Of a DNA stretch of 30,125 nt, positions 1-28,141 are shown in pieces. Positions within the stretch are counted from its first letter, which is position 1. Every line of letters starts with the position of its first letter. Source of the DNA: a virus. A program made the position numbers and the translations under genes. The notes below the pieces were generated by a model. That model was not told the DNA's origin and ran no database searches. It was given only the letters and a program-made list of their open reading frames with translations. The stretch covers positions 1-30,125 of IMG/VR virus record IMGVR_UViG_3300037184_000153; one strand, written 5' to 3'.

Positions 1-89
1 TCATCTGGAAAGAACCATATGACGTTCCCAACGATTTCCTTGATCTTGATGCCGAGGTTCCGATAGCTTGGTTATCAGAAAAGGTTTGA
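1..89 (+). CDS. 3' end of an unidentified gene (5' cut by window edge)
   Basis: Reading from base 3, the frame is open and encodes 28 residues ending WLSEKV before a TGA at 87-89. That TGA lies inside the first repeat promoter (TTGAC at 86-90), a stop-in-promoter arrangement seen many times in this window, which supports this being a real gene tail. Too little is present to assign a function. Confidence 0.55.
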   Translation, partial: IWKEPYDVPNDFLDLDAEVPIAWLSEKV

Positions 90-103
90 CATTTGATTAA
101 ATT
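86..103 (+). promoter_or_regulatory. Repeat promoter copy 1
   Basis: TTGACATTTGATTAAATT; first T is 38 nt before the ATG at 124. Its TGA ends the partial gene upstream. Confidence 0.75.
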
Positions 104-123
104 TTGATCTAACTCATCATATT

Positions 124-1038
124 ATGTTTAAGGTACGGACAGAACCACAGGCAAATTATCGTGCCGTCTTCATTGATGGAAAGACATTGAGGATTCCTCT
201 TGATCCAAAGAAGCCAATCACAGAGTTGCATTTTCCTGAATTTTACGATGTAAGTTTTGGGACAAAATGCAGTGGAAATTGTTTCGACGTGTGTTATGCA
301 TCGGCATTGAAAGCCGGTGTTCATTATACACATCTTGCTGAAAAAATCCATAAGTTTTTTGGTCCTCTGACAGAGAACCAGAGACCAATACAAATGGCTT
401 GCGGAGGCGAATCGGACAGTATGGAGAATCCGGAATGTTGGGAAGCACTTGAAGCATTTCGTTCGCTTGGCATTGTTCCAAATCTTACTACCCACGGTAT
501 TTTTGTGAATGACAAGACGATTGGGAATATTCAGAAATACACAGGAGGCGTGGCCGTGAGCCTACATCCACATTTAGAAAAAGCGTGGAGAAAGGCAATT
601 GATATTCTTCATGATGCAAAGGTTCGTCTTAATGTTCACTTTATCATTTCAGATAAAGAGTCCGTGGATCTTTTCATGAAGTTGTATAAGGAACTGTCGG
701 AGACGGTGGAATATTTCGTACTTCTTCCATTGATGAATGTTGGTCATGCAAAGAAGAATCCTAAGAAAGTTGATCTCATCGCACTTGAGAAAGCAATGGA
801 TTCTATTTACTCGGAAGGAAAATTAGCCTGTGGTGCTAATCTCTATCCGTGGCTCTGTACAGTAGGAAAGAAGTATGGAATTTCATTATACAGCCCAGAG
901 ATTTTTTCCAAGTATCTTCTCTTAAATGATCGACTTGATGTGTTCAATAATTCTTTCGAAAGAAAGCCGGTTCCATATACAACGGAAAACGGATGTGAAC
1001 TTGGATTTGCTAGGACGGAGTTTGGGTTAAATACCTGA
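124..1038 (+). CDS. Radical SAM superfamily protein
   Basis: 304 aa. Residues 45-60 carry a cysteine trio (C49, C53, C57) followed by Tyr, the place of the [4Fe-4S] cluster motif of radical SAM enzymes. A GGES sequence at 94-97 fits the GGE motif that contacts the methionine part of SAM, and LTTHG (121-125) plus VAVSLHPH fit later strands of the partial TIM barrel. Such enzymes cleave SAM to a 5'-deoxyadenosyl radical; the substrate here is unknown. The cluster motif is CX3CX3C, not the usual CX3CX2C. The ATG at 124 follows a repeat promoter with no Shine-Dalgarno. The gene stands alone, and an HNH endonuclease gene follows 43 nt after its stop. The family call is from motifs; the role in infection is not inferable. 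Confidence 0.75.
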   Translation: MFKVRTEPQANYRAVFIDGKTLRIPLDPKKPITELHFPEFYDVSFGTKCSGNCFDVCYASALKAGVHYTHLAEKIHKFFGPLTENQRPIQMACGGESDSMENPECWEALEAFRSLGIVPNLTTHGIFVNDKTIGNIQKYTGGVAVSLHPHLEKAWRKAIDILHDAKVRLNVHFIISDKESVDLFMKLYKELSETVEYFVLLPLMNVGHAKKNPKKVDLIALEKAMDSIYSEGKLACGANLYPWLCTVGKKYGISLYSPEIFSKYLLLNDRLDVFNNSFERKPVPYTTENGCELGFARTEFGLNT

Positions 1039-1062
1039 AAATAAATCCGTGTTTTCTCGATG

Positions 1063-1082
1063 TCACTTATAGTTATAAGTGA
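1063..1082. promoter_or_regulatory. Perfect palindrome at the start of the HNH gene
   Basis: TCACTTATA, two bases, then TATAAGTGA form a perfect 9-bp inverted repeat that ends on the first base of the ATG at 1082. It could be an operator or an RNA hairpin restricting expression of the endonuclease. There is no repeat promoter here. Confidence 0.5.
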
Positions 1083-2047
1083 TGTCAATAAAGAAAGAAC
1101 CTCGTAAATTTAATTGTGTTATCTGTGGAATCGAATGTGTTTCTAGGGATAAACGGTCCAAACTTTGTGGCTCTTTAGATTGCCAAAGAGCGTTCATTCG
1201 CAAAACGTATCATTCTACTCTATATCCACGTAAGTGTGTCATATGTGGAAAAGAGTTTGAGGGGAAGTATCATGAAACTGTGTGTAGTGATGAATGTGAA
1301 TCAAAGTCATATTCGAACGGGTCACTCTCGATGGGAACCATCGATGTTAATTTTACTTGTCGCTATTGTGGAAAAATTCTTGAGACGGTAAAGAAGGTTA
1401 AAAATTGGAAAGTAAATCCAAACACAAAGAAACGATTAAAGACTTGTTCGGATTGCAGAAAGATGGTTCTCCAGAAGATGTCCGAAGCCAAGAAAGGAAA
1501 CAAGAATCCTAACTGGAAAGAAGTAAAGAAAATACGGACTAAATACATACAAAATTATTCTAGTAAAGAAGATTTTAAAAAAGCAATGTCTGATCGGATG
1601 AAGAGAAACAATCCAATGAAGAACCTAGAAACGGTTAAAAAGGTATTTCGAACTAGAAAACAAAAAATAGAAAATGGAACTTTAGTTTTTAAAAAAGGGA
1701 TAAATAATCCTAGATGGAAGGGAATCTCTGACCGAAAACACATTCTTCGAACTCGTTTATATTCTTCGTGGGTGAAACCTGTAATGGAACGAGACGGCTG
1801 GAAATGTACAATGTGTGGTCAAAGGAAAAATTTAGAAGTCCATCATAAAGTTCCATTTAGAGAAATTTTGATAAAATGTCTTTCCAAGTTCAATAAGAAG
1901 ATAAAAGAATTGACTAATGAAGAATTTGAGTTATTGTGGACAGACGTTTTAGGTGAGCATTCACTTGACACCGGAATAAGTTTGTGTAAGAAATGTCATT
2001 CAAATGCAGATTCTTGCCGTGCCCACTTTGAACCAATTTTAGCTTGA
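1082..2047 (+). CDS. HNH homing endonuclease with zinc-finger and NUMOD3-like repeats
   Basis: 321 aa from the ATG at 1082 (a GTG at 1079 is also in frame). The N-terminal third has three CxxC...C-type clusters (CVICG near 12, CVICG near 51, CRYCG near 92), likely zinc-binding. The middle has NUMOD3-like GNKNPNWK and GINNPRWKG motifs typical of homing-endonuclease DNA-binding regions. The C-terminal part holds the HNH nuclease: RDGWKCTMCG, then LEVHHKVPF, then LCKKCH. A free-standing mobile endonuclease is the best reading. It lacks the repeat promoter of its neighbours, has a palindrome over its start, and ends on the TGA of the next repeat promoter. Confidence 0.85.
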   Translation: MSIKKEPRKFNCVICGIECVSRDKRSKLCGSLDCQRAFIRKTYHSTLYPRKCVICGKEFEGKYHETVCSDECESKSYSNGSLSMGTIDVNFTCRYCGKILETVKKVKNWKVNPNTKKRLKTCSDCRKMVLQKMSEAKKGNKNPNWKEVKKIRTKYIQNYSSKEDFKKAMSDRMKRNNPMKNLETVKKVFRTRKQKIENGTLVFKKGINNPRWKGISDRKHILRTRLYSSWVKPVMERDGWKCTMCGQRKNLEVHHKVPFREILIKCLSKFNKKIKELTNEEFELLWTDVLGEHSLDTGISLCKKCHSNADSCRAHFEPILA

Positions 2048-2061
2048 CATCCAATAAAATC
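2044..2061 (+). promoter_or_regulatory. Repeat promoter copy 2 (variant)
   Basis: TTGACATCCAATAAAATC; TTTGAT is replaced by TCCAAT. First T is 36 nt before the ATG at 2080, and its TGA ends the HNH gene. Confidence 0.65.
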
Positions 2062-2079
2062 TCCTTCACCCTCACCATC

Positions 2080-3372: not shown

Positions 3373-3390
3373 TTGACATTTGATTAAAAT
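3373..3390 (+). promoter_or_regulatory. Repeat promoter copy 3
   Basis: TTGACATTTGATTAAAAT, 3 nt after the upstream TAG; first T is 36 nt before ATG 3409. Confidence 0.8.
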
Positions 3391-3408
3391 TGTTCCACAC
3401 TCTGAACC

Positions 3409-4149
3409 ATGAAATTCAAACCCGGAAAGACATTCACGATTAAGCCTTCGGGAGTCGTTGTCAACCAGAGTGGTGATTTTTATTACTGGAAATGCACGGT
3501 GTCAGGAATGTACACCATGGCAACCAAGGAACGGTTTGAAAAAAGTGTCCTTCCTGAGTACGGTAATGACGAATTTCGGTTGACCAAGGAATTCGTTAGT
3601 GCCCCTGCCACTCGTTATCTTGCTGCTGGCTACACCAAGGAACAGATTGAAGAAATTGCCGAAAAGAACGACGGTAAACTTCCCTCACTCAGTGGAATTC
3701 CACGCAAGACTCGGAATAAGGACGAAGATCCTGAAAAAAACGCAATTAAGAAAGAGCGGGAGGAATTGATTGAAAGTGTCAAACCCGTTCGTCAGGCAAA
3801 CAATCTGGAAACTGCGGTGATTAAAACGATTGTTGTCAAGTCGGCTGATGTGGTTGTTCCTCAGAAGGCCGAAAAGGTTTATGCTTGGTCAGGTGATCCA
3901 AATTATTTCAAGTCTGCTGCGGCTTCCCCGATTGACATTGGGGAAGTGACCAAAGAAGCATGTTTGTTTCCAAATCATTTTTTGGACAGTGAGTGTGCCG
4001 AATGTCCAGTGTATGACAAATGCACGCTGTCAATCAAGTTCACCGAAGAGACTCGTGGAAAGAACAAGCGTGCAGTTGCTCCGGTGGTAAAGAAGATCCA
4101 ATCATGGCAGGATGATGAAATTTCAGTTCCTGCTGAAACTTTGGGTTAG
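3409..4149 (+). CDS. Unknown protein with a C-terminal Cys cluster
   Basis: 246 aa. The N-terminal half (1-95) is mixed alpha/beta. Residues 98-130 are strongly charged (many Lys and Glu, likely helical or flexible). Near the C-terminus four cysteines (C185, C196, C199, C205; spacing C-x10-C-x2-C-x5-C) could bind zinc or an iron-sulfur cluster. The tail is basic then acidic. Single-gene transcript: a repeat promoter in front and a strong hairpin terminator 25 nt behind. No family recognised. Confidence 0.75.
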   Translation: MKFKPGKTFTIKPSGVVVNQSGDFYYWKCTVSGMYTMATKERFEKSVLPEYGNDEFRLTKEFVSAPATRYLAAGYTKEQIEEIAEKNDGKLPSLSGIPRKTRNKDEDPEKNAIKKEREELIESVKPVRQANNLETAVIKTIVVKSADVVVPQKAEKVYAWSGDPNYFKSAAASPIDIGEVTKEACLFPNHFLDSECAECPVYDKCTLSIKFTEETRGKNKRAVAPVVKKIQSWQDDEISVPAETLG

Positions 4150-4225: not shown

Positions 4226-4243
4226 TTGACTTTTGATTTAATT
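4226..4243 (+). promoter_or_regulatory. Repeat promoter copy 4
   Basis: TTGACTTTTGATTTAATT, directly after a terminator; first T is 36 nt before ATG 4262. Confidence 0.85.
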
Positions 4244-4261
4244 CCGTCAACAGTGTTACCC

Positions 4262-4810
4262 ATGATGATTATGAGAATCATTGAACAACTTCCAGTCAAA
4301 GAAACCCTCCGCAAGAGTCTTTTGACTTCGATGAACATGAATTATGCCGTTATTAATGGCAAACGTCGTTCCATCGAACGTCTCAAAGCATTTGCTGTTC
4401 ATGGTTGCACGTGTGTCCGTTGCGGTAACACTGGGAACGAAATAATTGTTTGGGAAGCCAATGATGGGGCAACCCATGTTGATCTCTTCTTTCGTGATAA
4501 GAAAGGTCGTCCGGTGATGATGACACGGGATCACATCATTCCAAAAAGCAAGAAGGGGCTGAACAATATTTTTAATTATCAGCCAATGTGCTGCCGGTGC
4601 AATCTCCACAAAGGTTGTAACGAGACACAAGAAGACATCAATCTTTCAGTATTCAGAAATCGATGGAAGGATATCTATTACGGTATCCATGATCGGGTGA
4701 TTTCTTGCTCTTGCAATCGAATCGTCGGGCGGTTCTACCCGCACATAAAGTATTTAATGAGTCTGTATCTCCACCGTGTTTCATGGGTGATTGCAAAGAT
4801 TTCTTCTTGA
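4262..4810 (+). CDS. HNH endonuclease
   Basis: 182 aa. Upstream in-frame codons run through the terminator and promoter, so ATG 4262 (or 4265) is the start. The core is a typical HNH fold with a structural zinc site: CTCVRCG (C51, C54), then TRDHIIPKSKKG (D90, H91), Asn residues at 101-105, then MCCRCNLHKG (C111, C113). Such enzymes nick or cut DNA using one metal ion. Unlike the homing-type HNH gene at 1082, this one has the standard promoter and no NUMOD repeats, so it may be a domesticated phage nuclease. The stop is the TGA of the next promoter. Confidence 0.8.
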   Translation: MMIMRIIEQLPVKETLRKSLLTSMNMNYAVINGKRRSIERLKAFAVHGCTCVRCGNTGNEIIVWEANDGATHVDLFFRDKKGRPVMMTRDHIIPKSKKGLNNIFNYQPMCCRCNLHKGCNETQEDINLSVFRNRWKDIYYGIHDRVISCSCNRIVGRFYPHIKYLMSLYLHRVSWVIAKISS

Positions 4811-4824
4811 CATTTGATTAAAAT
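4807..4824 (+). promoter_or_regulatory. Repeat promoter copy 5
   Basis: TTGACATTTGATTAAAAT; first T is 37 nt before ATG 4844; its TGA ends the HNH gene. Confidence 0.8.
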
Positions 4825-4843
4825 TTGATCAACTAGCGAGATC

Positions 4844-5368
4844 ATGAACGCAGAAATCGATCTGGAAACAGCTCGTCGCGAAATGCTTTTGACGGAGATT
4901 CCTCGCTTCAACAGCTTTGAAGAGGTTACGGTGTTCCTCAATGGTTACATGGTAAAACGGTATGGGTTGCACAGCACTTATGACATTAACTGTGGTTTTT
5001 GTTTCATTTGGGCTTATCTTGTATGGGTGTTGTGGGATTATGCCGATGAAATAGTTTTTGTTACCACTCGTGGCCATGTCGGAGTAAAATATCAAGGAAA
5101 GTTTTATGACTCTGAAAATTTGTACGGAGCAAATGAAGATGCCGTATTTACCCAATATTACAGCCCAATTTCTATCAGTCTTTTTGACATGTGCTGGTAT
5201 TGGGCTCGTGGTGGGATTGAACGTTTTGAATTTCGAAAACTCATTTCAGCCTTTGACCCCCAATTGTTCGAGGAAGTCAAAAAGAATCCTTTTGTATGGG
5301 ATAGTCCTCCGATGGAATACGATCAGATAAATGAACTTTATTCTAATCTTGTACCACTTCAAGCTTGA
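4844..5368 (+). CDS. Possible cysteine peptidase / transglutaminase-like protein
   Basis: 174 aa. Residues 48-58 read INCGFCFIWA, and 77-90 read GHVGVKYQGKFYDS. A Cys at the start of a helix (C50 or C53), then His (H78) before a beta hairpin, then Asp (D89), is the order of a papain/transglutaminase-like triad. The C-H-D order is visible; activity is inference. The rest (100-174) is rich in Phe, Tyr and Trp with no recognised motif. Single gene with its own promoter; the stop is the TGA of the next promoter. Confidence 0.6.
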   Translation: MNAEIDLETARREMLLTEIPRFNSFEEVTVFLNGYMVKRYGLHSTYDINCGFCFIWAYLVWVLWDYADEIVFVTTRGHVGVKYQGKFYDSENLYGANEDAVFTQYYSPISISLFDMCWYWARGGIERFEFRKLISAFDPQLFEEVKKNPFVWDSPPMEYDQINELYSNLVPLQA

Positions 5369-5382
5369 CATTTGATTAAAAT
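5365..5382 (+). promoter_or_regulatory. Repeat promoter copy 6
   Basis: TTGACATTTGATTAAAAT; 36 nt downstream lies an ATA, not an ATG, at 5401. The leader TTAATTCACACC is identical to those before genes 10285, 12019 and 13015. Confidence 0.8.
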
Positions 5383-5400
5383 TTAATCTTAATTCACACC

Positions 5401-5535
5401 ATAAAAAACAGCAAAATCTTCTTCGCCACTCTCAAAGAATTGGCTGAATTCTTGGAATCATACCATGGCACCTCAGCTTTTGAAGTGCATCAGCGTGGAG
5501 GAGATTGGATTATGGAATTTACCGAAGGATTCTGA
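5401..5535 (+). CDS. 44-codon gene with ATA at the expected start
   Basis: From ATA 5401 the frame reads KNSKIFFATL, then KELAEFLES, and ends WIMEFTEGF at TGA 5533. It looks protein-like (an amphipathic helix, then a beta-rich end), and the codon at the exact 36-nt start position is ATA where all comparable cassettes have ATG. Either AUA initiates here, the gene is silenced by a G-to-A change, or translation begins internally. A rival 27-codon frame (MAPQLLKC..., ATG near 5465) ends in the next promoter's TGA but looks less convincing. Confidence 0.45.
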   Translation: MKNSKIFFATLKELAEFLESYHGTSAFEVHQRGGDWIMEFTEGF

Positions 5536-5544
5536 ATTTAATCC

Positions 5545-5562
5545 TTGACTTTGGATAAAAAA
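5545..5562 (+). promoter_or_regulatory. Repeat promoter copy 7 (GGATAAAA class)
   Basis: TTGACTTTGGATAAAAAA; first T is 37 nt before ATG 5582. Confidence 0.8.
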
Positions 5563-5581
5563 TCTGATCCACTCTTCAATC

Positions 5582-5899
5582 ATGAAGCTTAAGACCGAAG
5601 CAGAAATTAAAGCCATCTTGAAGTCCATTCGGGAGGTTTTCGAGTACCGCAACATCGAGTATCTCACGAAGTCAGCTTATGGTTATCTTTACCTTTGCTC
5701 TGGCTTCATCGCTCATTACAATCTGAATGGTTTCCGTGATGCCTATCGGAACATCGAAACGCTTCGTGAAGCCCTCTTCTCCAATGAGCCTATGAACCAG
5801 TGGAGGAACTTCCTTCCGGAAGATCATGATTACGAGTACATGATGCAGAAGCGTAACATCTATAATCGGATCGTTGCCATTGCCGAGGAGAACACCTAA
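5582..5899 (+). CDS. Unknown 105-aa protein, probably helical
   Basis: Begins MKLKTEAEIKAILKSI and is predicted mostly alpha-helical, with a Tyr-rich stretch at 33-45. No motif recognised. First gene of an operon of four with 5901, 6068 and 6257. Start fixed by the promoter distance. Confidence 0.75.
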   Translation: MKLKTEAEIKAILKSIREVFEYRNIEYLTKSAYGYLYLCSGFIAHYNLNGFRDAYRNIETLREALFSNEPMNQWRNFLPEDHDYEYMMQKRNIYNRIVAIAEENT

Positions 5900-6481: not shown

Positions 6482-6499
6482 TTGACATTGGATAAAATT
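6482..6499 (+). promoter_or_regulatory. Repeat promoter copy 8 (GGATAAAA class)
   Basis: TTGACATTGGATAAAATT; first T is 36 nt before ATG 6518. Confidence 0.8.
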
Positions 6500-6517
6500 T
6501 CTGTCTCACTCTCGACC

Positions 6518-6705
6518 ATGAAGAATTTCCAGTTAACTATTGATGCCATCAACTCTGTATAAAGGAAGAAGCTCGGAAGTTTGCTTACGAGAATTATTTC
6601 TATCCAACGGCAATGGAAATCCTGATCATTGAAACTGCCATGCGGAGGGCAGTGGTGATCACAACGGAAAAGCTTCTTGAAAACATCAACGCAAATCACC
6701 GATGA
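6518..6705 (+). pseudogene. Frame-disrupted small gene
   Basis: ATG 6518 has the correct promoter distance and encodes MKNFQLTIDAINSV before TAA. Coding then continues convincingly in the -1 frame (KEEARKFAYENYFYPTAM, then EILIIETAMRRAVV, ending NANHR) to TGA 6703, which overlaps the next start. The second frame has no early ATG. A single-base indel near 6555-6562 would join both parts into about 62 aa. No slippery heptamer is visible, so a mutation or assembly error is more likely than programmed frameshifting. Confidence 0.6.
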
Positions 6706-6994: not shown

Positions 6995-7507
6995 ATGAGC
7001 ACCGAAACTGCCAGTGTTAAGTCTCCCAGTAAAACTGCCAAAGCCGTTACGGCGAAGGCCAAGACCGCCAGCAAGACCAATAAGGTCAAGGCTGCAACCA
7101 CTCCGGTTGTTGCTCCCAAGGCGAAGTCTGATCGTGTTGAGTATGGATTTGAACTCAACTTCCCCAACAAGCCCTTCACGGTGAAGCAGCTTGCCGACAT
7201 CAAGCACAACACCGTCAAGGAGATCACTCTCTACGTGCGGATTCAGAAGGCGTTGAAGACCGGCGTGCTGGAGATCGCTGGCAAGCGCGTTCCGACTGAG
7301 GCTCGCAAGGGTCGTCAGGAAATCCTCTATCGTCGGGCCAATGTTGGTGCCGCTGTGACTTCCGCAACTCCGGTTGCTGAGGTTGCTGCCGAAACCGCTC
7401 CGGTGGTCGAGGTCGCTCCGGTGGTCGAGGTCGCTCCGGTGGTCGAGGCCACGCCTGCCGTGGTTGATGCTCCGGTGACTGCGGAGGTTGCTCCGGTCAC
7501 GGTGTAA
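6995..7507 (+). CDS. Lys/Ala-rich winged-helix protein, probably abundant
   Basis: 170 aa in three parts. Residues 1-48 are a basic Ala/Lys/Thr tail like those of histone-H1-type proteins. Residues 50-115 (FTVKQLADIK, then VRIQKALKTG, then KGRQEILYRR) resemble a winged helix-turn-helix DNA-binding domain. Residues 122-170 are an Ala/Pro/Val/Glu tail with tandem APVVEV repeats. Codons are strongly C-ending (CTC, AAC, TTC, AAG), unlike most neighbours, suggesting high expression. A single-gene unit with an A-rich leader and a hairpin behind. Nucleoid-like binding or transcription control is inference. Confidence 0.7.
   Translation: MSTETASVKSPSKTAKAVTAKAKTASKTNKVKAATTPVVAPKAKSDRVEYGFELNFPNKPFTVKQLADIKHNTVKEITLYVRIQKALKTGVLEIAGKRVPTEARKGRQEILYRRANVGAAVTSATPVAEVAAETAPVVEVAPVVEVAPVVEATPAVVDAPVTAEVAPVTV
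7397..7450 (+). repeat. Three tandem 18-bp repeats in the coding region
   Basis: Unit GCTCCGGTGGTCGAGGTC at 7397, 7415 and 7433 (the last copy ends GCC). Encodes the APVVEV repeats in the C-terminal tail of the winged-helix protein. Confidence 0.95.
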
Positions 7508-7540: not shown

Positions 7541-7568
7541 TTGACAAGAACAGAGGCTCGCCTATGAT
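7541..7568 (+). promoter_or_regulatory. Consensus sigma70-type promoter
   Basis: TTGACA (7541-7546), 16-bp spacer, TATGAT (7563-7568). It does not contain the TTTGAT part of the repeat promoter. The -10 box is exactly the loop of the hairpin at 7554-7578. Drives the HD/kinase-like pair starting at 7587. Confidence 0.7.
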
Positions 7569-7583
7569 GGGCGAGCCTTTTTT
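7554..7583 (+). terminator. Hairpin terminator overlapping a promoter
   Basis: AGGCTCGCC (7554-7562) pairs with GGCGAGCCT (7570-7578), followed by a T run. Ends the winged-helix gene transcript. Its loop is the -10 box of the next promoter. Confidence 0.85.
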
Positions 7584-7586
7584 ATT

Positions 7587-20168: not shown

Positions 20169-20186
20169 TTGACATTTGATTTAATC
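20169..20186 (+). promoter_or_regulatory. Repeat promoter copy 27
   Basis: TTGACATTTGATTTAATC; first T is 35 nt before ATG 20204. With its spacer it matches the 23256 copy except at one base over 40. Confidence 0.8.
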
Positions 20187-20203
20187 GTGTCACCGTTGAT
20201 CCC

Positions 20204-20410
20204 ATGAAGATTACTTCAATCGTCAAGAATGACTTTGGCCAAATCATCGTCGAAGTCATAGACTGCAACAGTACCAAACGGATTCCGGTTGCTGCCAAGG
20301 CCGATATTCCCAAGGTCATTGCCAAGGCGTGTTGCTGCACGGATAAAGAAGACGTTATCATGGATCTCCAGCAAAACTTTCCTGAATTCTATCAACCTCC
20401 AATGTGGTAA
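20204..20410 (+). CDS. Unknown 68-aa protein with a CCC cluster
   Basis: Begins MKITSIVKNDFGQIIVEVID. A beta N-terminal half, then KACCCTDKEDVIMDLQQ with three adjacent cysteines. No family recognised. Operon with the next gene. Confidence 0.7.
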   Translation: MKITSIVKNDFGQIIVEVIDCNSTKRIPVAAKADIPKVIAKACCCTDKEDVIMDLQQNFPEFYQPPMW

Positions 20411-20418: not shown

Positions 20419-20619
20419 ATGCTCGACATTTTTGATAGAGAACTTTCGGTTGGTGATCTCATTGCCTTCAATCCTCCGAGTTACAAAGGACTCCGGAAGG
20501 GGGTCATCGTTGCCTTCACTCCTAAAAATGTAAAGATCCAGTATTTCGATTTCTCCCATGATCAACGGATTACGTGGATGTCTCCAAAAGACGTAATGAA
20601 AAGAACCGATTGGTCTTGA
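20419..20619 (+). CDS. Small SH3/KOW-like protein
   Basis: 66 aa from ATG 20419; a GTG at 20404 overlaps the previous gene and is less likely. VGDLIAFNPP, KGVIVAFTPKNVKIQYFDF is the beta pattern of a small barrel, similar to gene 5901. Ends Ser-stop on the TGA of the next promoter. Confidence 0.65.
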   Translation: MLDIFDRELSVGDLIAFNPPSYKGLRKGVIVAFTPKNVKIQYFDFSHDQRITWMSPKDVMKRTDWS

Positions 20620-20633
20620 CATTTGATAAAAAA
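20616..20633 (+). promoter_or_regulatory. Repeat promoter copy 28
   Basis: TTGACATTTGATAAAAAA; first T is 36 nt before ATG 20652; its TGA ends the upstream gene. Confidence 0.8.
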
Positions 20634-20651
20634 TTCATCTCAATTATTCCC

Positions 20652-21845
20652 ATGCAAAACAAAGCTCGTCGTTCTGCTTTCCTTGCCCTCGCCGAAGATA
20701 TGTTCGTGCATCCTGAGTTCACGTGCATCAAAATGGAATTCCCCAAATCGAGTCCGCTTCTGTCTGGATTCGGCAACATGGAACTGGAATTGAAGTTCTT
20801 TATAGATCATTTCAAACCTGAGAACGCAGCTGTGGTTGAAAGTATTCCGTCCAATCATGGTGGTTGGTGGCAAACCAATACCGATGGAACCGCAATTGGA
20901 TTCGGATATGAGTGCCGTATCTTCGCCCTTTTGCTCTGTGCTGAAATGCTCCGTCGTCCGGAAAAGAAGAAATTAAAGGAAGTCATCAACATCGATCCGG
21001 AAGAAGTGTTCAGGGATACTTCCAAAGTCCCAGAGGGTTGGAAAATCGTTCCTCACAATCAGCGAATCAAGGCCGGTGATCGTTTCAATATGGGTGACTT
21101 GTGTTGGAATATCACCAATCAACCCGGTGATAAACAAGATATGGGTTTGACTTACATTCGGAAACTTCCGGAAAAGAAAGTCGAAGAGAAGTTTGTTGTC
21201 ACTGAGAACATGGCCGGTGGAAACGTGATGGATTATTTCATTTCTCGTGCTCCGGTTGCCAAGAAAGTTCCTTCCGAACATTTGATTCCTGCTGGTTATG
21301 AGGAAATCTTTCCCGGCACCGTCTTGAAAAAGGGCGACAAATTTTGGTGCAACTTCCTTGGCTGGAATGAAACTGCCGAGGTTGGTGAGGTCATCAAGGA
21401 TTCCAAAGGATTCATGACTTATATTCGAAAGACTGTTGCTCCGGTTGCTGTCAAGAAAGTCTTTTCCATCAATGACGTGACATCACCATGGAACCTTTAT
21501 CCTCCCGGTATTCCTGAGGGTTGGACTCGTTTGGCTCCAACCATCTGTGTGAAAGAGGGCGATCTGATTTGGGTTGGTTGTCATTGGATGAAAGCAACTC
21601 CCGGTGACATTGGTAAGCCTGCAAGATTTGGACTTTCTGATACGGTGTTAGTGACGATTCGAAAGATAGCCAAGCCGGTCAAGGTCAACGGTGTTGCTGT
21701 TCCGGAAGGTTGGGCAATCATCGAACATGGCCTAGAGATTCGTGATGGTGACAAGTATCTCGACGGTGATTGGACATACACTGGCAACGGTAGAACCGGT
21801 CGCAAGGTAGGTGAAAGCCGATTGGTCTATATCCGCAAGATCTAA
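20652..21845 (+). CDS. Protein with four PEGW...YIRK repeats
   Basis: 397 aa. Residues 1-110 form a mostly helical unique domain. Four repeats of about 46-52 residues follow, at about 126-171, 212-260, 287-338 and 350-396. Each starts (V/I)P(E/A)G(W/Y), has a central GD with a following Trp, and ends (Y/T)IRK. This is a beta-rich repeat seen in phage proteins of unknown role, perhaps for binding. Linkers are Lys/Val/Pro-rich. The upstream in-frame extension includes the promoter and is rejected. Confidence 0.8.
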   Translation: MQNKARRSAFLALAEDMFVHPEFTCIKMEFPKSSPLLSGFGNMELELKFFIDHFKPENAAVVESIPSNHGGWWQTNTDGTAIGFGYECRIFALLLCAEMLRRPEKKKLKEVINIDPEEVFRDTSKVPEGWKIVPHNQRIKAGDRFNMGDLCWNITNQPGDKQDMGLTYIRKLPEKKVEEKFVVTENMAGGNVMDYFISRAPVAKKVPSEHLIPAGYEEIFPGTVLKKGDKFWCNFLGWNETAEVGEVIKDSKGFMTYIRKTVAPVAVKKVFSINDVTSPWNLYPPGIPEGWTRLAPTICVKEGDLIWVGCHWMKATPGDIGKPARFGLSDTVLVTIRKIAKPVKVNGVAVPEGWAIIEHGLEIRDGDKYLDGDWTYTGNGRTGRKVGESRLVYIRKI

Positions 21846-21846: not shown

Positions 21847-21874
21847 TTGACACGCAACAGAAAACTGTCATAGT
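21847..21874 (+). promoter_or_regulatory. Sigma70-like promoter without the TTTGAT block
   Basis: TTGACA (21847-21852) and CATAGT (21869-21874), 16-bp spacer. The TTGAC is 36 nt before ATG 21883, as in the repeat promoters, but the AT-rich block is absent. Confidence 0.55.
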
Positions 21875-21882
21875 TCTCTTTC

Positions 21883-22029
21883 ATGACACCAACAGAATAC
21901 ATCGAAGCATATCGTCTGATCAAAGCCAAGAAGAAGTCTGGAACGACCTTGGCCGATCTTCGCGAGGAATTCAAAAAGTTCTCTCTTTCCGATAAGGAAA
22001 AGATTCTTTCAGTTCTCCACGGAGATTGA
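21883..22029 (+). CDS. Small helical protein (48 aa)
   Basis: MTPTEYIEAYRLIKAKKKSG..., ends DKEKILSVLHGD. Two or three amphipathic helices, basic in the first half. Start supported by TTGAC spacing; function unknown. Confidence 0.7.
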   Translation: MTPTEYIEAYRLIKAKKKSGTTLADLREEFKKFSLSDKEKILSVLHGD

Positions 22030-22031: not shown

Positions 22032-22049
22032 TTGACATTTGATTAAGAA
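22032..22049 (+). promoter_or_regulatory. Repeat promoter copy 29
   Basis: TTGACATTTGATTAAGAA; first T is 36 nt before ATG 22068. Confidence 0.75.
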
Positions 22050-22067
22050 TCCATAGTCTTATTGCCA

Positions 22068-22262
22068 ATGAATGACAATGAGACTAAACGGTTGAGCCTA
22101 TTACAGCAAGAGGAACACTTCTTGCGAACGGATGGTATTCGTTATTTAGAAACGATGCAAGACAAGCCGTTGTTTCAACGACATGAAGACAAGGACGTGG
22201 CTGATGGTCTTTACCTCTTCCACACCTATGAATTCAGGTCATCCCATTCAGAAAAGTCTTGA
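22068..22262 (+). CDS. Unknown 64-aa protein
   Basis: Begins MNDNETKRLSLLQQEEHFLR; charged and helical. ATG 22068 is at the standard distance (the TTG at 22062 is not preferred). Ends Ser-stop on the TGA of the next promoter. Confidence 0.7.
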   Translation: MNDNETKRLSLLQQEEHFLRTDGIRYLETMQDKPLFQRHEDKDVADGLYLFHTYEFRSSHSEKS

Positions 22263-22276
22263 CTTTTATTTTAGTT
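22259..22276 (+). promoter_or_regulatory. Repeat promoter copy 30 (degenerate)
   Basis: TTGACTTTTATTTTAGTT; the GAT is lost, yet the first T is still 36 nt before ATG 22295 and the TGA still ends the upstream gene. Confidence 0.65.
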
Positions 22277-22294
22277 TGTTCCCTACTCAACACC

Positions 22295-22483
22295 ATGAAA
22301 GAAATTTTTCTCGTTGAACTGTCATCCACCGGGAAACATCCTTGGTCATCGATGGAAGCATTTGAAACAGAAGAAGAAGCTCAAAAAGCGGTGGTCTCTC
22401 AACGGAAGAAAGTCACGGGATGGTTTTTTCGGAAAAGACCCGTCACGTTGTACAAGACACTTGAAGAAGCAAAGAGATCATGA
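22295..22483 (+). CDS. Unknown 62-aa protein
   Basis: Begins MKEIFLVELSSTGKHPWSSM; the plan strand - helix (EAFETEEEAQKAVVSQRKK) - strand - helix is typical of small uncharacterised phage proteins. ATGA overlap with the next gene. Confidence 0.75.
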   Translation: MKEIFLVELSSTGKHPWSSMEAFETEEEAQKAVVSQRKKVTGWFFRKRPVTLYKTLEEAKRS

Positions 22484-22698
22484 ACTTCACCGAATCTGAA
22501 ATTACTGCTCTTGAAAAGGCCGGTTGGTATGATATCAAAGATGGCAGAGCTTACGATGGATGGCATAGAGTCATCAAGCAAGATTCAAATTATTTCGAAT
22601 TTCAAGCATCGATGGATGATGGGGAAGGTGGAAATTGGTGGGAGTTTGACAATGGATTCCCCACGATTGAGGGAGTCATTGATCGAAATAATTCTTGA
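22480..22698 (+). CDS. Unknown 72-aa acidic protein
   Basis: Begins MNFTESEITALEKAGWYDIK; aromatic-rich, with GEGGNWWEFDNGFPTIEGVI. Second gene of the 22295 operon. Ends Ser-stop on the TGA of the next promoter. Confidence 0.7.
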   Translation: MNFTESEITALEKAGWYDIKDGRAYDGWHRVIKQDSNYFEFQASMDDGEGGNWWEFDNGFPTIEGVIDRNNS

Positions 22699-22712
22699 CA
22701 TTTGATATAATT
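22695..22712 (+). promoter_or_regulatory. Repeat promoter copy 31
   Basis: TTGACATTTGATATAATT; first T is 34 nt before ATG 22729. The spacer TAGGGTGATCCTATGA can form a short hairpin over the start, like the one at 14124. Confidence 0.75.
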
Positions 22713-22728
22713 TAGGTAGGGTGATCCT

Positions 22729-23259
22729 ATGATTCAAATTAGTGAGCATCGATTCCAACGGAAGTTTGGAGACTGCAAGAACGCGCATGGCATCGGAATT
22801 TGGTACGATTCCAAACCCGGTGGCTTCTACAGTGGTTGGACGGCACGCCTTATCGTCAAGGATGATCGGATTCTCTATGGCTACAGCAAGGATTCACTGC
22901 ATGAAGCCATGAACCAATTGCGTTATCAAATGTCCGTGGTCGAGCTATGGATCAACATGCCAGTTATCTTTCATCGTCGGTCGTTCCAACATAAAAACAG
23001 TGTTTCGAGGCATTTCGACTCGGATTTCATTGGATCGGATGGATTGAATCGTTGGTGGTGCCATCGAACTCTCATCATTGAAAAAACCGATGAATATAAT
23101 TTCTTTCAGTACCGTTCTTGTATGGAAACTGCTGGGAGGAATTGCCGTGGACAATGGCAACCAAGGGATGATCCGGTTGAGTTTACCGTGATGGGACGTT
23201 CCATCAAAGACATCAAAGTGGTTTTGAAGGAGATGGAAAAAATCTTCAAAAGAACTTGA
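22729..23259 (+). CDS. Unknown 176-aa protein
   Basis: Begins MIQISEHRFQRKFGDCKNAH. Rich in Trp, His, Arg and Phe; two similar stretches (IWYDSKPGGFYSGWTARLIVK and WWCHRTLIIEKTDEYNFFQY) hint at a duplicated beta unit. No catalytic motif recognised. Single-gene unit; the stop is the TGA of the next promoter. Confidence 0.75.
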   Translation: MIQISEHRFQRKFGDCKNAHGIGIWYDSKPGGFYSGWTARLIVKDDRILYGYSKDSLHEAMNQLRYQMSVVELWINMPVIFHRRSFQHKNSVSRHFDSDFIGSDGLNRWWCHRTLIIEKTDEYNFFQYRSCMETAGRNCRGQWQPRDDPVEFTVMGRSIKDIKVVLKEMEKIFKRT

Positions 23260-23273
23260 CATTTGATTTAATC
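23256..23273 (+). promoter_or_regulatory. Repeat promoter copy 32
   Basis: TTGACATTTGATTTAATC; first T is 35 nt before ATG 23291. Near-identical to the 20169 copy including its spacer. Confidence 0.8.
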
Positions 23274-23290
23274 GTGTCACCGTTGCTCCC

Positions 23291-23740
23291 ATGAACGTGA
23301 CCATCATCTATCCTACCGATTACCGTTCAACCTATCCGAAAGCCGTAGAGCTATGGCTGGAAGGCAAATATAACGAATCGGTTGCATCATTCGTCAAGAG
23401 TTCTTGTCAGCTTGTTCTTAAAGGTGATGAGAAGCGTGCCTATGCCTATGCTTACGAACGACAACAGTTTGAATCGAGTCGAGTAGAAGCCAAACGGCAC
23501 GAAGCAATCACCGATGCAATGTGCCACGCTGCACAAGCGTTTGAAGGAATCGACCGGAACCGTGTTACTCCGGAAAATAAGGATTACTGGGAATTGGTTC
23601 GAATGATCGAGGCTCGGCGGAAGGAATGGCAGAAGCTTTACGGAGTTTGGAATCAGCACGAAAAGGCAAAGCTGAATGCCATTCGATTAAAAGCTTTCGT
23701 TCGCTCGATGCGATTGTTGAAAGTAAATATTGACATTTGA
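23291..23740 (+). CDS. Unknown 149-aa helical protein
   Basis: Begins MNVTIIYPTDYRSTYPKAVE. Almost wholly helical, rich in Ala, Arg and Glu; AVELWLEGKYNESVASFVKSS resembles one TPR-like helix pair. Its stop is the second TGA of the next promoter (in TTTGAT), so the last residues NIDI are encoded by the promoter repeat itself. Confidence 0.75.
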   Translation: MNVTIIYPTDYRSTYPKAVELWLEGKYNESVASFVKSSCQLVLKGDEKRAYAYAYERQQFESSRVEAKRHEAITDAMCHAAQAFEGIDRNRVTPENKDYWELVRMIEARRKEWQKLYGVWNQHEKAKLNAIRLKAFVRSMRLLKVNIDI

Positions 23741-23747
23741 TTTAATT
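23730..23747 (+). promoter_or_regulatory. Repeat promoter copy 33
   Basis: TTGACATTTGATTTAATT; first T is 35 nt before ATG 23765. The upstream gene ends at the TGA of its TTTGAT part. Confidence 0.8.
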
Positions 23748-23764
23748 TCGTTACCGTCGATTAC

Positions 23765-24088
23765 ATGAAACTCGTAGACGATCTTGCAACACTTCTTTCC
23801 ATTTGGTCTAACCGTGGAACGAAATTCAATTTCGATTTTCCTATGGTCATTGCAAACTCCTTGACAGAAGAGGAAATCCGTGCGGTTTTGATTTGGATTC
23901 GTTCTCTCGGGCCGGTGACAATCGAGACGGATTCAACTTCTTATAATACGCCCGGTGGTTATGCGGATACCTATCATGTCTGGATCAAAGGAGTTTCACC
24001 CGTCAGAATGTATCTTGGATTCCGCTTCGAAGGCGAAGACGATTCCACCTTGGTAATGTCGAGAAAGATTCTTTCAGAACTGTCTTGA
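23765..24088 (+). CDS. Unknown 107-aa protein
   Basis: Begins MKLVDDLATLLSIWSNRGTK; a helix with LTEEEIRAVLIWIRSLGPV, then a beta part (DTYHVWIKGVSPVRMYLGFRF). No family recognised. Ends Ser-stop on the TGA of the next promoter. Confidence 0.75.
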   Translation: MKLVDDLATLLSIWSNRGTKFNFDFPMVIANSLTEEEIRAVLIWIRSLGPVTIETDSTSYNTPGGYADTYHVWIKGVSPVRMYLGFRFEGEDDSTLVMSRKILSELS

Positions 24089-24102
24089 CTTTTGATTTAA
24101 TT
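24085..24102 (+). promoter_or_regulatory. Repeat promoter copy 34
   Basis: TTGACTTTTGATTTAATT; first T is 34 nt before ATG 24119. The spacer holds a small ATTCAG/CTGAAT inverted repeat just before the ATG. Confidence 0.8.
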
Positions 24103-24118
24103 CAGTAAAGCTGAATCC

Positions 24119-24364
24119 ATGAAATCAAACAACAGGTGGACGACTCCTTATTTTGGAGTTTCTCATTATGGTGAAATGTCCTCTGAAAACCGATGGGCAA
24201 CGATAACCAGACTGGGGAACAAAACCATTATTCTCATTTGTTGGAACGCCGACAAGGCTCATACGTTCAACTCTCCGGAGTTTACTTTTACTTCCATCAT
24301 TGCTGCTCAGCAAGCCGGCGAAGCATTCGTCGAAAACAACACGATTCCTGAAATTAAATCTTGA
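24119..24364 (+). CDS. Unknown 81-aa protein
   Basis: Begins MKSNNRWTTPYFGVSHYGEM; beta strands (WATITRLGNKTIILICWN) then a helix (SIIAAQQAGEAFVEN). Ends Ser-stop on the TGA of the next promoter. Function unknown. Confidence 0.75.
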   Translation: MKSNNRWTTPYFGVSHYGEMSSENRWATITRLGNKTIILICWNADKAHTFNSPEFTFTSIIAAQQAGEAFVENNTIPEIKS

Positions 24365-24378
24365 CTTTTGATTTAATT
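24361..24378 (+). promoter_or_regulatory. Repeat promoter copy 35
   Basis: TTGACTTTTGATTTAATT; first T is 36 nt before ATG 24397; its TGA ends the upstream gene. Confidence 0.8.
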
Positions 24379-24396
24379 CCTACCAACCTCTTTCCC

Positions 24397-24840
24397 ATGA
24401 ACATCACCCACATCGTTAGTCTCTCCCCTCGTTTCCCGGCTGTCAATACCGCCGAGATTCTTCGCAAGAAGTACCTGCAAGCTCAGAAACGCTACGGTCT
24501 CAAGGCCGGTGATCGGGTTCGTGTCATCGCCAAGGCCGGTGATTACCAACTTGGTTGGAGAAATACTTGGGAACTCCGTATGGATTCTGCCGTGGGCAAG
24601 AACTTCACGGTCAAGAGTATCGATGGAGCAACCGGTGTAGATCTCGTTGAAGGCGAATATTGGTTCCCCTTCTTTGTTCTCCAGAAGATCAACACGAATC
24701 CGATTCGCATTCCTTTGAAGGACGGCGGGGAGGCCATTGTCACCAAGGGCCACACTTACATTGACGGTCGCCCCTTCTCAAAGGGAACCCTCAAGCGCCT
24801 CAATGCTGCTGTGCTCCGGATGGAACGGAACATGGCGTAA
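24397..24840 (+). CDS. SH3-like-barrel protein, probably well expressed
   Basis: 147 aa. GLKAGDRVRVIAKAGDY (about 35-50) and GEYWFPFFVLQ (about 89-99) follow the strand pattern of an SH3-like barrel; the C-terminus is basic (GRPFSKGTLKRLNAAVLRM). C-ending codons (GCC AAG, CTC, AAG AAC TTC ACG GTC AAG) are enriched, like genes 6995 and 27204, and a strong terminator follows, so an abundant single-gene mRNA is likely. Specific role unknown. Confidence 0.75.
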   Translation: MNITHIVSLSPRFPAVNTAEILRKKYLQAQKRYGLKAGDRVRVIAKAGDYQLGWRNTWELRMDSAVGKNFTVKSIDGATGVDLVEGEYWFPFFVLQKINTNPIRIPLKDGGEAIVTKGHTYIDGRPFSKGTLKRLNAAVLRMERNMA

Positions 24841-24894: not shown

Positions 24895-24912
24895 TTGACT
24901 TTGGATAAAATG
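24895..24912 (+). promoter_or_regulatory. Repeat promoter copy 36 (GGATAAAA class)
   Basis: TTGACTTTGGATAAAATG, directly after a terminator; first T is 37 nt before ATG 24932. Confidence 0.85.
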
Positions 24913-24931
24913 AGGATCTTAATTCAAAACC

Positions 24932-25162
24932 ATGGACACTCCCGTTCCTACTCGTGAGGATTACGATGCAAACACTCCAAAACCCAATTGTCGTTTGAAT
25001 GGCGATGGAGTTCCTCTTTCGATTGACAAACAGAGATGGCTCAATATTGCCTTTGGAACGATCCGTGCTGAACGTGATTATGCCAAGGCAACCGGAAATA
25101 CCCGGCTCACCGAAATGTTAACCAATGTCCTTTCCACACTGATTCTGGTAGACTGTGAATAA
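24932..25162 (+). CDS. Unknown 76-aa protein
   Basis: Begins MDTPVPTREDYDANTPKPNC; a polar N-terminal part, then the helical RWLNIAFGTIRAERDYAKAT and a hydrophobic end. Operon with gene 25169, 6 nt downstream. Function unknown. Confidence 0.75.
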   Translation: MDTPVPTREDYDANTPKPNCRLNGDGVPLSIDKQRWLNIAFGTIRAERDYAKATGNTRLTEMLTNVLSTLILVDCE

Positions 25163-25168: not shown

Positions 25169-25342
25169 ATGAAATTCAAGGTCGTGTTCCCAATGTCCGA
25201 TTCACTACAAGCACTCCAGAAGATGGACTCTCAGAAGAATCGGCTTCTAGGCAAGTTCATTCAATTCGATGAGACTGTCACTGTCGAATTCGACACCAAG
25301 ACTCGAATGGCAAAAGTGCTACCGATTAAAAAAGGTTCTTGA
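25169..25342 (+). CDS. Unknown 57-aa protein, paralogue of gene 10285
   Basis: MKFKVVFPMS... ends VEFDTKTRMAKVLPIKKGS. Same start and end motifs as the 62-aa protein at 10285. Ends Ser-stop on the TGA of the next promoter. Function unknown. Confidence 0.75.
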   Translation: MKFKVVFPMSDSLQALQKMDSQKNRLLGKFIQFDETVTVEFDTKTRMAKVLPIKKGS

Positions 25343-25356
25343 CATTTGATTAAAAT
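25339..25356 (+). promoter_or_regulatory. Repeat promoter copy 37
   Basis: TTGACATTTGATTAAAAT; first T is 39 nt before ATG 25378; its TGA ends the upstream gene. Confidence 0.8.
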
Positions 25357-25377
25357 CATCTCAACCTCTCCAGCATC

Positions 25378-25665
25378 ATGAATCACCTTGAGCAGTATCG
25401 CTGTGCTGTTATCTCCAATATCCGTTACGGTCATGGGTTTGGCCGAAATCACACCCTTTATGCGGAGATCCGTGGAACCAACGATGAACTTCTCGTGAGT
25501 GCTACACTGGAGTATTGCACTGCACGTATGGTCGAAGCGGCGAAGTATTTCGCCAAGGTGGATCGAGTCGTTCCGTTGTCTCGTGCAATTACTGTAGATA
25601 GTTTGATTCGCACCATTGCCGGAATCGAATGTCCGGATCGTCGGGACGACACTTACTTTCCATGA
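25378..25665 (+). CDS. Unknown 95-aa protein
   Basis: Begins MNHLEQYRCAVISNIRYGHG; a beta N-terminal part (HTLYAEIRGTNDELLVSATL) then helices. First of three ATGA-coupled genes (25378, 25662, 25790). No family recognised. Confidence 0.75.
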   Translation: MNHLEQYRCAVISNIRYGHGFGRNHTLYAEIRGTNDELLVSATLEYCTARMVEAAKYFAKVDRVVPLSRAITVDSLIRTIAGIECPDRRDDTYFP

Positions 25666-26047: not shown

Positions 26048-26065
26048 TTGACATTGATAAAAACT
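26048..26065 (+). promoter_or_regulatory. Repeat promoter copy 38 (one-base deletion)
   Basis: TTGACATTGATAAAAACT; one T or G is missing from TTKGAT. First T is 39 nt before ATG 26087. Upstream, CCTAAG/CTTAGG form a weak hairpin. Confidence 0.7.
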
Positions 26066-26086
26066 AGGTGCTTACTACCCAAAGTC

Positions 26087-26508: not shown

Positions 26509-26697
26509 ATAATCTTTAGGATTGGCCTGTCGTTGAACGGAAAGGGCAATATAAAAGGTTTTGACCGTTGAAACGGGTCAACGGAGCTATTTGACGGAAA
26601 GTGGCGTAATTGGGCAGGTTGATCAGAGTTTTTATAAAACACAAGCCCAAAGTGAGAAGAGAGGAAAGATTTTCTTTTGGATCTGAGACGATTTGTG
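26509..26697 (+). other. Non-coding leader region with palindromes
   Basis: No convincing gene. Contains a perfect 7-bp hairpin CCGTTGA/TCAACGG (26565-26584) without a T run, flanked by related pieces (GTTGAACGGAAAGGGC at about 26531, TTTGACGGAAAGTGGCG at about 26590). It could be a structured leader RNA, a small RNA or an operator cluster ahead of gene 26736. Confidence 0.4.
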
Positions 26698-27129: not shown

Positions 27130-27147
27130 TCGACATTTGATAAAAAG
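27130..27147 (+). promoter_or_regulatory. Repeat promoter copy 39 (TCGAC variant, long leader)
   Basis: TCGACATTTGATAAAAAG; 36 nt downstream is ATA (27166) where others have ATG. The true start is 38 nt further, at 27204. Confidence 0.75.
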
Positions 27148-27203
27148 TCTGATTCACTCTTCACCATAGTAAGGAAAGCAAGTAATTCAACCCTCCGAAA
27201 CAA

Positions 27204-27782
27204 ATGAATAACACACCTGATTCAATCGTCAAAGCCAACGTGGCAGTCGCGCAACTCATTGCCAAGTCTGCCGCCATCGGAAACAAAGTCCAATTCGTTG
27301 GAGTCACCTATCGCAGCAAGTCAACCGGTGAACTTGCCCGCCATGTTTTCAACGTGGGAGCTTCTTACGTTAACACCCTCAAGGCGAGCATTGAAACGCT
27401 TGGGGCCAAGATCAACAGCCTTTCCGGTATCGATGCACAAGCAGCGGCCAACGTAATGGCTTCCCTTTCCAAGAGCCTCACGGCACACTTGAACGGTGAA
27501 CAGAGCGAGGATTTCACCAAGAAAGGCATGTATGAACCCGTTTGCACGGGAATCAAAGCCTCGCTCAATGACGGAACCCTTGAGCTTTACGGCTTGAGCG
27601 TTTCCAAGACGGTGCTTGAAGCCGGAATCGAAAAGCCGGATACCCGCCGGCCCTTGACCAAGGCGCAAGACAAGATCAAGCACGATCTTCCAATTTCCAA
27701 ATTCCGCACGCTGGCAATCGATATGGGAGCGCTGGAAAGCGTTCGAATCGGCGGAACAGAGCTTGAAGTCAGTCAGGTCTGA
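27204..27782 (+). CDS. Unknown 192-aa protein, probably highly expressed
   Basis: Begins MNNTPDSIVKANVAVAQLIA. Ala-rich helices (INSLSGIDAQAAANVMASLS) and a beta part (VQFVGVTYRSKSTGELARHVF). Codons are strongly biased to GCC, AAC, AAG, CTC, TTC, ATC. Terminators flank it on both sides and it has a leader of about 40 nt, so it forms an isolated, probably abundant mRNA. No family recognised; a structural or DNA-associated early protein is possible but unsupported. Confidence 0.8.
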   Translation: MNNTPDSIVKANVAVAQLIAKSAAIGNKVQFVGVTYRSKSTGELARHVFNVGASYVNTLKASIETLGAKINSLSGIDAQAAANVMASLSKSLTAHLNGEQSEDFTKKGMYEPVCTGIKASLNDGTLELYGLSVSKTVLEAGIEKPDTRRPLTKAQDKIKHDLPISKFRTLAIDMGALESVRIGGTELEVSQV

Positions 27783-27807
27783 CTTCGGGGGTTGAAGATC
27801 AAGGGTG

Positions 27808-27837
27808 AAGGGGAGGGACTGCAAACCTCCCTTTTTT
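27808..27837 (+). terminator. Rho-independent terminator
   Basis: GGGAGG (27811-27816) pairs with CCTCCC (27826-27831), followed by six T. The loop GACTGCAAA is identical to part of the 24862 terminator loop. Confidence 0.85.
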
Positions 27838-27848
27838 ATTTAATAGGC

Positions 27849-27866
27849 TTGACATTTGATTTAATT
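27849..27866 (+). promoter_or_regulatory. Repeat promoter copy 40
   Basis: TTGACATTTGATTTAATT; first T is 36 nt before ATG 27885. Last standard copy in the window. Confidence 0.8.
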
Positions 27867-27884
27867 CTGTCCAGTCTCTCCACC

Positions 27885-28141
27885 ATGAAAGATGCAATCA
27901 CGGTTCACTCAGTAGCCAAGTATTGTCCGATTCCAATGCCGACAAGAATCCTTGTCCGCAGGTCAGTCGTTCGGCGTCGTTCATCGTTCAGATCCAACAC
28001 CGTTTCATCCGTGGGCGAAGCCTTCGCGGTGCTTATGGTAAGAAGGGGTTGGCTGTTGAACGCTGGGGTTGGACAATAAAAGTCAACACAACAATGTGTG
28101 TCGAGGGGAAGAATCCTCTTGACACACTCGACATTGTATAA
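27885..28141 (+). pseudogene. Frame-disrupted last gene of the block
   Basis: ATG 27885 has the correct spacing and starts MKDAITVHSVAKY, continuing in frame to a TAA near 28079 with unlikely Arg/Ser-rich content. From about 27923 the -1 frame has codon use like the neighbours and reads SDSNADKNPCPQVSR, then GAYGKKGLAVERWGWTIKV, to TAA 28139. One indel near 27920 would join the two parts into about 84 aa. Which frame is translated cannot be settled here. Confidence 0.45.

Follow-up and report, generated by a model that had tools for sequence, protein, structure and literature searches.

The stretch analysed here (the window) is one whole IMG/VR virus record, IMGVR_UViG_3300037184_000153, of 30,125 bases and 42% GC, and the element under study is a short block, TTGACWTTKGATWWAA, which recurs upstream of its genes and which we consider a putative promoter. 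At no more than two mismatches the window holds 37 copies of the block, every one on the + strand, and the − strand has at most one chance match. The copies start with TTGAC and carry an AT-rich box of the form TT[TG]GATWWAA. Block positions are listed here with the open reading frames (ORFs) that they precede; the offset is the number of nucleotides from the first T of TTGAC to the ATG, and hexamers and spacers refer to a second element downstream of TTGAC[AT].

86–123, +: block up to the start of ORF 124–1038; offset 38
2044–2079, +: block with divergent AT box, before ORF 2080–2976; offset 36; CACCCT 7 nt before ATG
3373–3408, +: block before ORF 3409–4149, homologous to G1/G5/G10/G11 genes; offset 36
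4226–4261, +: block before ORF 4262–4810 (HNH); offset 36
4807–4843, +: block before ORF 4844–5368; offset 37; TGA is the previous ORF's stop
5365–5400, +: block facing ATA (5401) and a 44-codon frame; exception
5545–5581, +: block before ORF 5582–5899; offset 37; CACTCT 6 nt before ATG
6482–6517, +: block before ATG 6518; frame broken after 15 codons
6925–6994, +: block before ORF 6995–7507; offset 70; leadered exception, A/C-rich leader of ~34 nt
9365–9400, +: block before ORF 9401–10252; offset 36; N-terminus agrees with relatives
10249–10284, +: block before ORF 10285–10473; offset 36; gives the previous ORF's stop
10476–10510, +: block before ORF 10511–10855; offset 35
10852–10900, +: block before ORF 10901–11614; offset 49, a longer distance
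11621–11656, +: block before ORF 11657–11980; offset 36; CACTCT, spacer 17
11983–12018, +: block before ORF 12019–12348; offset 36
12345–12380, +: block before ORF 12381–12536; offset 36; CAACCT, spacer 17
12979–13014, +: block before ORF starting at 13015; offset 36
13197–13232, +: block before ORF 13233–13577; offset 36; CACCCT, spacer 17
13886–13922, +: block before ORF 13923–14102; offset 37
14106–14142, +: block before ORF 14143–14421; offset 37; TAGGGT, spacer 16
14418–14452, +: block before ORF 14453–14806; offset 35
14814–14849, +: block before ORF 14850–15203; offset 36; CATTCT, spacer 17
15720–15754, +: block before ORF 15755–16024; offset 35
17104–17137, +: block before ORF 17138–17491; offset 34; TACTCT, spacer 16
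17494–17531, +: block before ORF 17532–17774; offset 38
19343–19379, +: block before ORF 19380–19532; offset 37
20169–20203, +: block before ORF 20204–20410; offset 35; CACCGT, spacer 16
20616–20651, +: block before ORF 20652–21845; offset 36
21847–21882, +: TTGACA-16-CATAGT-8-ATG without AT-rich box, before ORF 21883–22029; read directly
22032–22067, +: block before ORF starting at 22068; offset 36; TAGTCT, spacer 16
22259–22294, +: block before ORF 22295–22483; offset 36
22695–22728, +: block before ORF 22729–23259; offset 34; TAGGGT, spacer 16, 6 nt to ATG
23256–23290, +: block before ORF 23291–23740; offset 35; CACCGT, spacer 16
23730–23764, +: block before ORF 23765–24088; offset 35; TACCGT, spacer 16
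24085–24118, +: block before ORF 24119–24364; offset 34
24361–24396, +: block before ORF 24397–24840; offset 36; CAACCT, spacer 17
24895–24931, +: block right after an intrinsic terminator (−13.3 kcal/mol), before ORF 24932–25162; offset 37
25339–25377, +: block before ORF 25378–25665; offset 39
26048–26086, +: block before ORF starting at 26087; offset 39
27130–27203, +: block (TCGAC) before ORF 27204–27782; offset 74; leader of ~38 nt
27849–27884, +: last block, after a terminator, before ATG 27885; offset 36; CAGTCT, spacer 17

The earlier note on this DNA had described a near-constant distance of 34–39 nt, with a mode of 36, between TTGAC and the ATG, and the measured spacing distribution bears this out. 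In 32 of the 37 blocks, an ORF of 30 codons or more begins with an ATG at an offset of 34–39 (34 in 3, 35 in 6, 36 in 14, 37 in 6, 38 in 2 and 39 in 1), against a chance of 5.3% at a random position (binomial P = 6.5e-36; only ATG was measured, which favours AUG). The extent given for the series, 86–27885, matches the copies at 86 and 27849. The claim that nearly all copies conform stands for these 32, with exceptions elsewhere: the starts behind 10852, 6925 and 27130 are distant (offsets 49, 70 and 74), 5365 faces ATA and the frame behind 6482 is broken. Between block and ATG the sequence is indeed rich in pyrimidines (68% versus 49% for the strand), and GGAG is absent from all 32 leaders, with GAGG in one and AGGA in one. 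At 6925 and 27130, CACGTC and CACCATAG stand where the ATG would be expected. The 6925 arrangement is conserved: in two relatives described below, G1 and G5, the orthologues start at an ATG 68 and 69 nt downstream of the block, behind an A/C-rich leader without a Shine-Dalgarno (SD) motif. A few genes are thus predicted to retain a leader of about 33 nt. The open 44-codon frame faced by the block at 5365–5535 may have a decayed or a non-AUG start, and the ORF at 6518–6705 is frameshifted after 15 codons, perhaps through an assembly error. In 16 copies the TGA of TTGAC doubles as stop codon for the upstream ORF (ends at 2047, 4810, 5368, 10252, 10855, 12348, 12982, 14421, 15723, 20619, 22262, 22698, 23259, 24088, 24364 and 25342), so that the intergenic space there would be just one core promoter.

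Pattern scans of viral contigs, all of them metagenome fragments with genes called by a simple codon-usage script, revealed a variant block, TTGACWTTTATAAAA, in contigs G001 (52.7 kb), G005 (63 kb), G010 (68 kb), G011 (33 kb), G012, G013 and G014 (97 kb), abbreviated G1, G5, G10 and so on. It reaches up to 36 copies per contig, in a single orientation, and its AT-rich box, fused to TTGACA, reads TTTATAAAA. Window proteins are 30–67% identical to homologues in G1, G5, G10 and G11, and G1 has genes in common with the window, G5, G10, G11 and G14. G14 encodes a terminase, a portal and a major capsid protein. Between its terminase and capsid and their counterparts in Microcystis phage Mel-JY01 and Flavobacterium phage immuto, identity is 51–58%, which would place the lineage near the T4 superfamily. 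The window, which itself holds only early-type genes, would be linked to that superfamily via G1. The blocks cover the small-gene region, and the structural region is without them. The block is missing from the cultured relatives Mel-JY01, immuto and RM378, a search with a conserved early protein gave no relatives beyond these contigs, and an epsilonproteobacterial metagenome-assembled genome hit in the genome-contig scan showed no further enrichment and looks like chance. In G14 and the late part of G1, ATTTATA stands 3–18 nt before the ATG of late genes and may be a late promoter of the T4 kind that gives short leaders.

We analysed the region downstream of TTGACA by expectation maximization (EM) on 113 blocks of six relatives (52 blocks of G1 and G5, 61 of G10–G14). 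This found the hexamer CA[CT]T[CG]T, which in most of the 113 blocks lies 16 or 17 nt after TTGACA and 6–7 nt before the ATG, with log-likelihoods of 199 and 237 versus 20–32 for shuffled controls. Its A2 (95–96%) and T6 (94–98%) are the two key bases of the bacterial −10 box; compared with TATAAT, these two positions are kept at ∼95% and the first base is mostly C. Spacer and ATG distance co-vary (r = 0.44, n = 104), a correlation that would follow if the start site were set by the second element. With the A of ATG as +1, TTGACA would lie at −35 to −30, with the hexamer at −13 to −8, at most one base off the textbook positions. EM on the window alone returned a pyrimidine-rich pattern adjoining the ATG and not a −10, a problem resolved by the relatives' matrix, on which the window hexamers score a mean of 2.65 versus 0.43 ± 0.41 for shuffled sequences and appear as a weaker version of the same element. 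Good window matches end mostly 5–7 nt before the ATG, and TAGGGT stands at the second-hexamer place in copies 14106 and 22695. The same geometry with textbook boxes occurs in G2 (194 kb; L043–L044, L078–L085), an unrelated phage contig in which canonical leaderless promoters are mixed with SD-led genes; TTGACA-17-TATAAT peaks there at 6 nt before the ATG.

The AT-rich box (TATAAAA, TTTAAT, TAAAAT) could itself be taken for the −10, with transcription starting ∼14 nt before the ATG to give a short, pyrimidine-rich, SD-less leader: it is strongly conserved, resembles TATAAT (perfect at 22695) and often follows TG in the window, as in an extended −10. However, such a reading gives neither TTGAC nor the CANNNT hexamer a role, a conserved −35 is absent from the region upstream of TTGAC, and the promoters at 21847 and in G2 keep the same geometry without an AT box. 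In the tRNA-Met copies of the relatives, moreover, TATAGT or TAGAGT stands at the second hexamer and not at the AT box. We consider this alternative unlikely. The other option raised by the earlier note, the promoter of a phage polymerase with a leader of 15–20 nt, fares worse. Many near-identical copies in one orientation are what a single-subunit (T7-type) or virion RNA polymerase would use, but in T7-type promoters conservation runs unbroken to about +6, whereas the block carries 0.1–0.6 bits at positions 17–22 and 29–34, so that conservation is not continuous up to +1; nor was an RNA polymerase gene recognised among the family matches listed for 73 proteins of two relatives. It is the least credible of the explanations weighed here.

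The block also precedes tRNA genes: tRNA-Met in G1, G5, G11 and G13, tRNA-Ala in G5 and G12, and tRNA-Lys in G13, the last behind a block whose AT box is shortened. As these genes require no ATG, the block would act at the level of transcription, and we read it as a promoter, not a translation signal. The second hexamer of the tRNA-Met copies (TAGAGT, TATAGT or CATAGT) is closer to consensus and is usually followed by a boxA-like TGTTCTTT. This boxA-like sequence lies between block and tRNA genes in G1, G5, G12 and G13, which suggests the use of host Nus factors. In contig G6 (L045), a tRNA with a CTA anticodon, called tRNA-Pyl, starts 37 nt after a block and is a possible amber suppressor. 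An archaeal TATA/BRE arrangement, with the AT box ∼24 nt before the ATG, is rejected in view of the T4-type bacteriophage genes, the boxA-like tRNA leaders and the −10 hexamer. Being tightly tied to start codons, the block might instead serve translation or bind a protein, in the manner of the Start-Associated Sequences of cluster K mycobacteriophages, which are likewise a repeated motif of one orientation at the starts of non-structural genes, mostly ATG (PMC3203893). These have an AGGAG core 3–7 bp before the start; the block, in contrast, has no such SD core, stands before tRNA genes that lack an ATG, and in 16 copies provides the previous gene's stop. We give this explanation very little credence.

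How the block genes are translated was assessed from their starts. SD complementarity, scored as duplex energy with the anti-SD (cut-off dG ≤ −4.5), was found at 3.6% of block starts versus 19.5% of internal ATGs (P = 4e-31), and G2 served as a positive control (44% at starts versus 8%). An earlier test with GATC in the target gave false SD hits in window leaders and was replaced by duplex energies. Non-block starts of the window and its relatives showed no rise over internal ATGs either, that is, SD motifs are not common in the rest of these genomes, a finding that would have counted against the leaderless idea of the earlier note had it been otherwise. A pyrimidine directly precedes the ATG in 91% of block genes and in 64% of the other genes (P = 5e-10), which is what transcription starting at the A would lead one to expect. 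Almost all block genes (174/175) start with ATG, a figure that is partly built in, ATG having helped to choose the starts. Placing the N-terminus at the block ATG brings 30 of 64 ortholog pairs into exact register and nearly all others within a few residues. Among non-block genes close to a neighbour, 76 of 101 start −5 to +12 nt from the upstream stop; coupling is therefore their likely route of initiation. SD-scarce hosts with an intact anti-SD are known among Bacteroidota and some Verrucomicrobiota (PMC10783764), and a host of this type would fit the phage relatives.

From what the sequences display (the block, its second element, their spacing, the absence of SD, the use before tRNA genes and the conserved starts), we propose that each block is a compact sigma70-type early promoter producing a leaderless or nearly leaderless mRNA. 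We assign this reading a probability of about 0.78, and about the same to a +1 on or next to the ATG. TTGAC[AT] would be the −35 element and the degenerate [CT]ANNNT hexamer (mostly CACTCT, CACTGT or CAACCT) 16–17 nt downstream the −10 element, both recognised by a sigma70-like holoenzyme; the AT-rich box fused to the −35 may further aid recognition or melting and could be the target of a phage factor. Since the −10 ends 6–7 nt before the ATG, RNA polymerase should start on its A or 1–2 nt before it, and the ribosome would then be recruited to the 5′-terminal AUG, by 70S or IF2/initiator-tRNA recognition. This is the first option of the earlier note, TTGAC as a −35 with +1 at or beside the ATG, now favoured by the relatives' −10-like hexamer, the tRNA copies, the preceding pyrimidine and the lack of SD use. 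Almost every early gene of the phage and its relatives seems to have its own near-identical promoter. Proteins with a ribosomal L7/L12 C-terminal domain are encoded in G10 (L065:7503–7949) and G14; this domain binds translation factors including IF2, and the proteins are a possible link to leaderless translation.

Several observations weigh against a sigma70-type promoter. In about half of the window copies the hexamer is weak or misplaced (spacing 14 or 18–21), and several copies have no credible −10-like hexamer; the T at −12 is usually replaced by C; and intrinsic terminators directly precede only a few blocks (among them window copies 24895 and 27849). The AT box, in addition, is as conserved as the −35 (1.4–1.9 bits per position), which ordinary sigma70 promoters do not explain. 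A phage sigma factor or MotA-like activator reading the extended −35 and the AT box, as in middle-type promoters, would keep the same geometry and leaderless mRNAs with a different factor, and would suit the ∼15 nearly invariant positions, far beyond a −35 box, and the non-consensus −10. No sigma factor or activator was found, however, among the family matches listed (the 25 most frequent) for 73 proteins of two relatives, and the near-consensus −10 and boxA of the tRNA copies point to the host polymerase. We hold this variant as a serious but minority possibility. Equally tentative is the wider picture of a T4-superfamily lineage of SD-poor hosts whose whole early set is leaderless and mostly monocistronic, transcribed from extended −35 promoters (TTGACWTTTATAAAA or TTGACWTTKGATWWAA with a CANNNT −10) through a phage-specific factor.

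Other features of the window lie outside this series. At 7541–7587, TTGACA-16-TATGAT lies within an intrinsic-terminator hairpin (GGCTCGCC..GGGCGAGCC TTTTTT) whose T-run stops just before the ATG of ORF 7587–8018, so that promoter and terminator seem superposed. A block-like TTGACATTGTATAAAC occurs at 28119–28192, on the border of the early region, as two copies that face each other in an inverted repeat, and a short intergenic hairpin, TTGACCGTT-GAAA-CGGGTCAACGG, lies at 26561–26581. Homing-endonuclease-like genes without a block, with homologues in relatives, occupy 8503–9325, 16178–17134 and 18464–19306 on the − strand, opposing the main strand; GIY-YIG with NUMOD3 was recognised at 16178–17134.

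T4 has many separate host-type early promoters with an extended consensus, and its early mRNAs have SD leaders. The block system shares the many separate host-type early promoters; unlike in T4, its promoter abuts the ATG. Among bacteria, leaderless genes exceed 20% in Actinobacteria and Deinococcus-Thermus, and TANNNT ∼12 bp upstream of the start is their mark (Zheng et al., PMC3160421). The block genes resemble these TA-led genes in their A-N4-T, the A of which precedes the ATG by 12 nt in the relatives, in the lack of SD and in the use of ATG, but differ in a −10 that starts mostly with C, in a strongly conserved extended −35 and in their reach, TA-led genes being a genome fraction and the block standing on nearly every early gene (PMC3160421). 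In Deinococcus, −10 regions adjoining ORFs were tested as promoters (PMC12340547); there too the −10 lies directly before the ORF and the product is leaderless. In Deinococcus-Thermus, however, the −10 suffices and the −35 enhances (PMC12340547), whereas here, in a phage with a different host, the −35 and AT box dominate. Thermus phage phiYS40 has leaderless middle and late transcripts (review PMC3594737). The present, uncultured phage would likewise rely on leaderless mRNAs, as inferred from sequence, but for the small genes of its early region and in a lineage near the T4 superfamily.

Leaderless transcription is thus known, and what would be new is a −35 extended into a block, a −10 that departs from consensus and the near-universal early use in a T4-superfamily lineage. 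If the proposed reading is true, one genome carries tens of near-identical leaderless promoters and offers a natural test of ribosome competition during infection, and of whether phages fit the geometry of their transcription to SD-ignoring hosts; if a phage-specific factor is involved, promoter choice and start-codon choice would be one decision. The block may also serve as a practical guide to where the small early genes of these phages truly start, and as a promoter signature by which to recognise the lineage in metagenomes.

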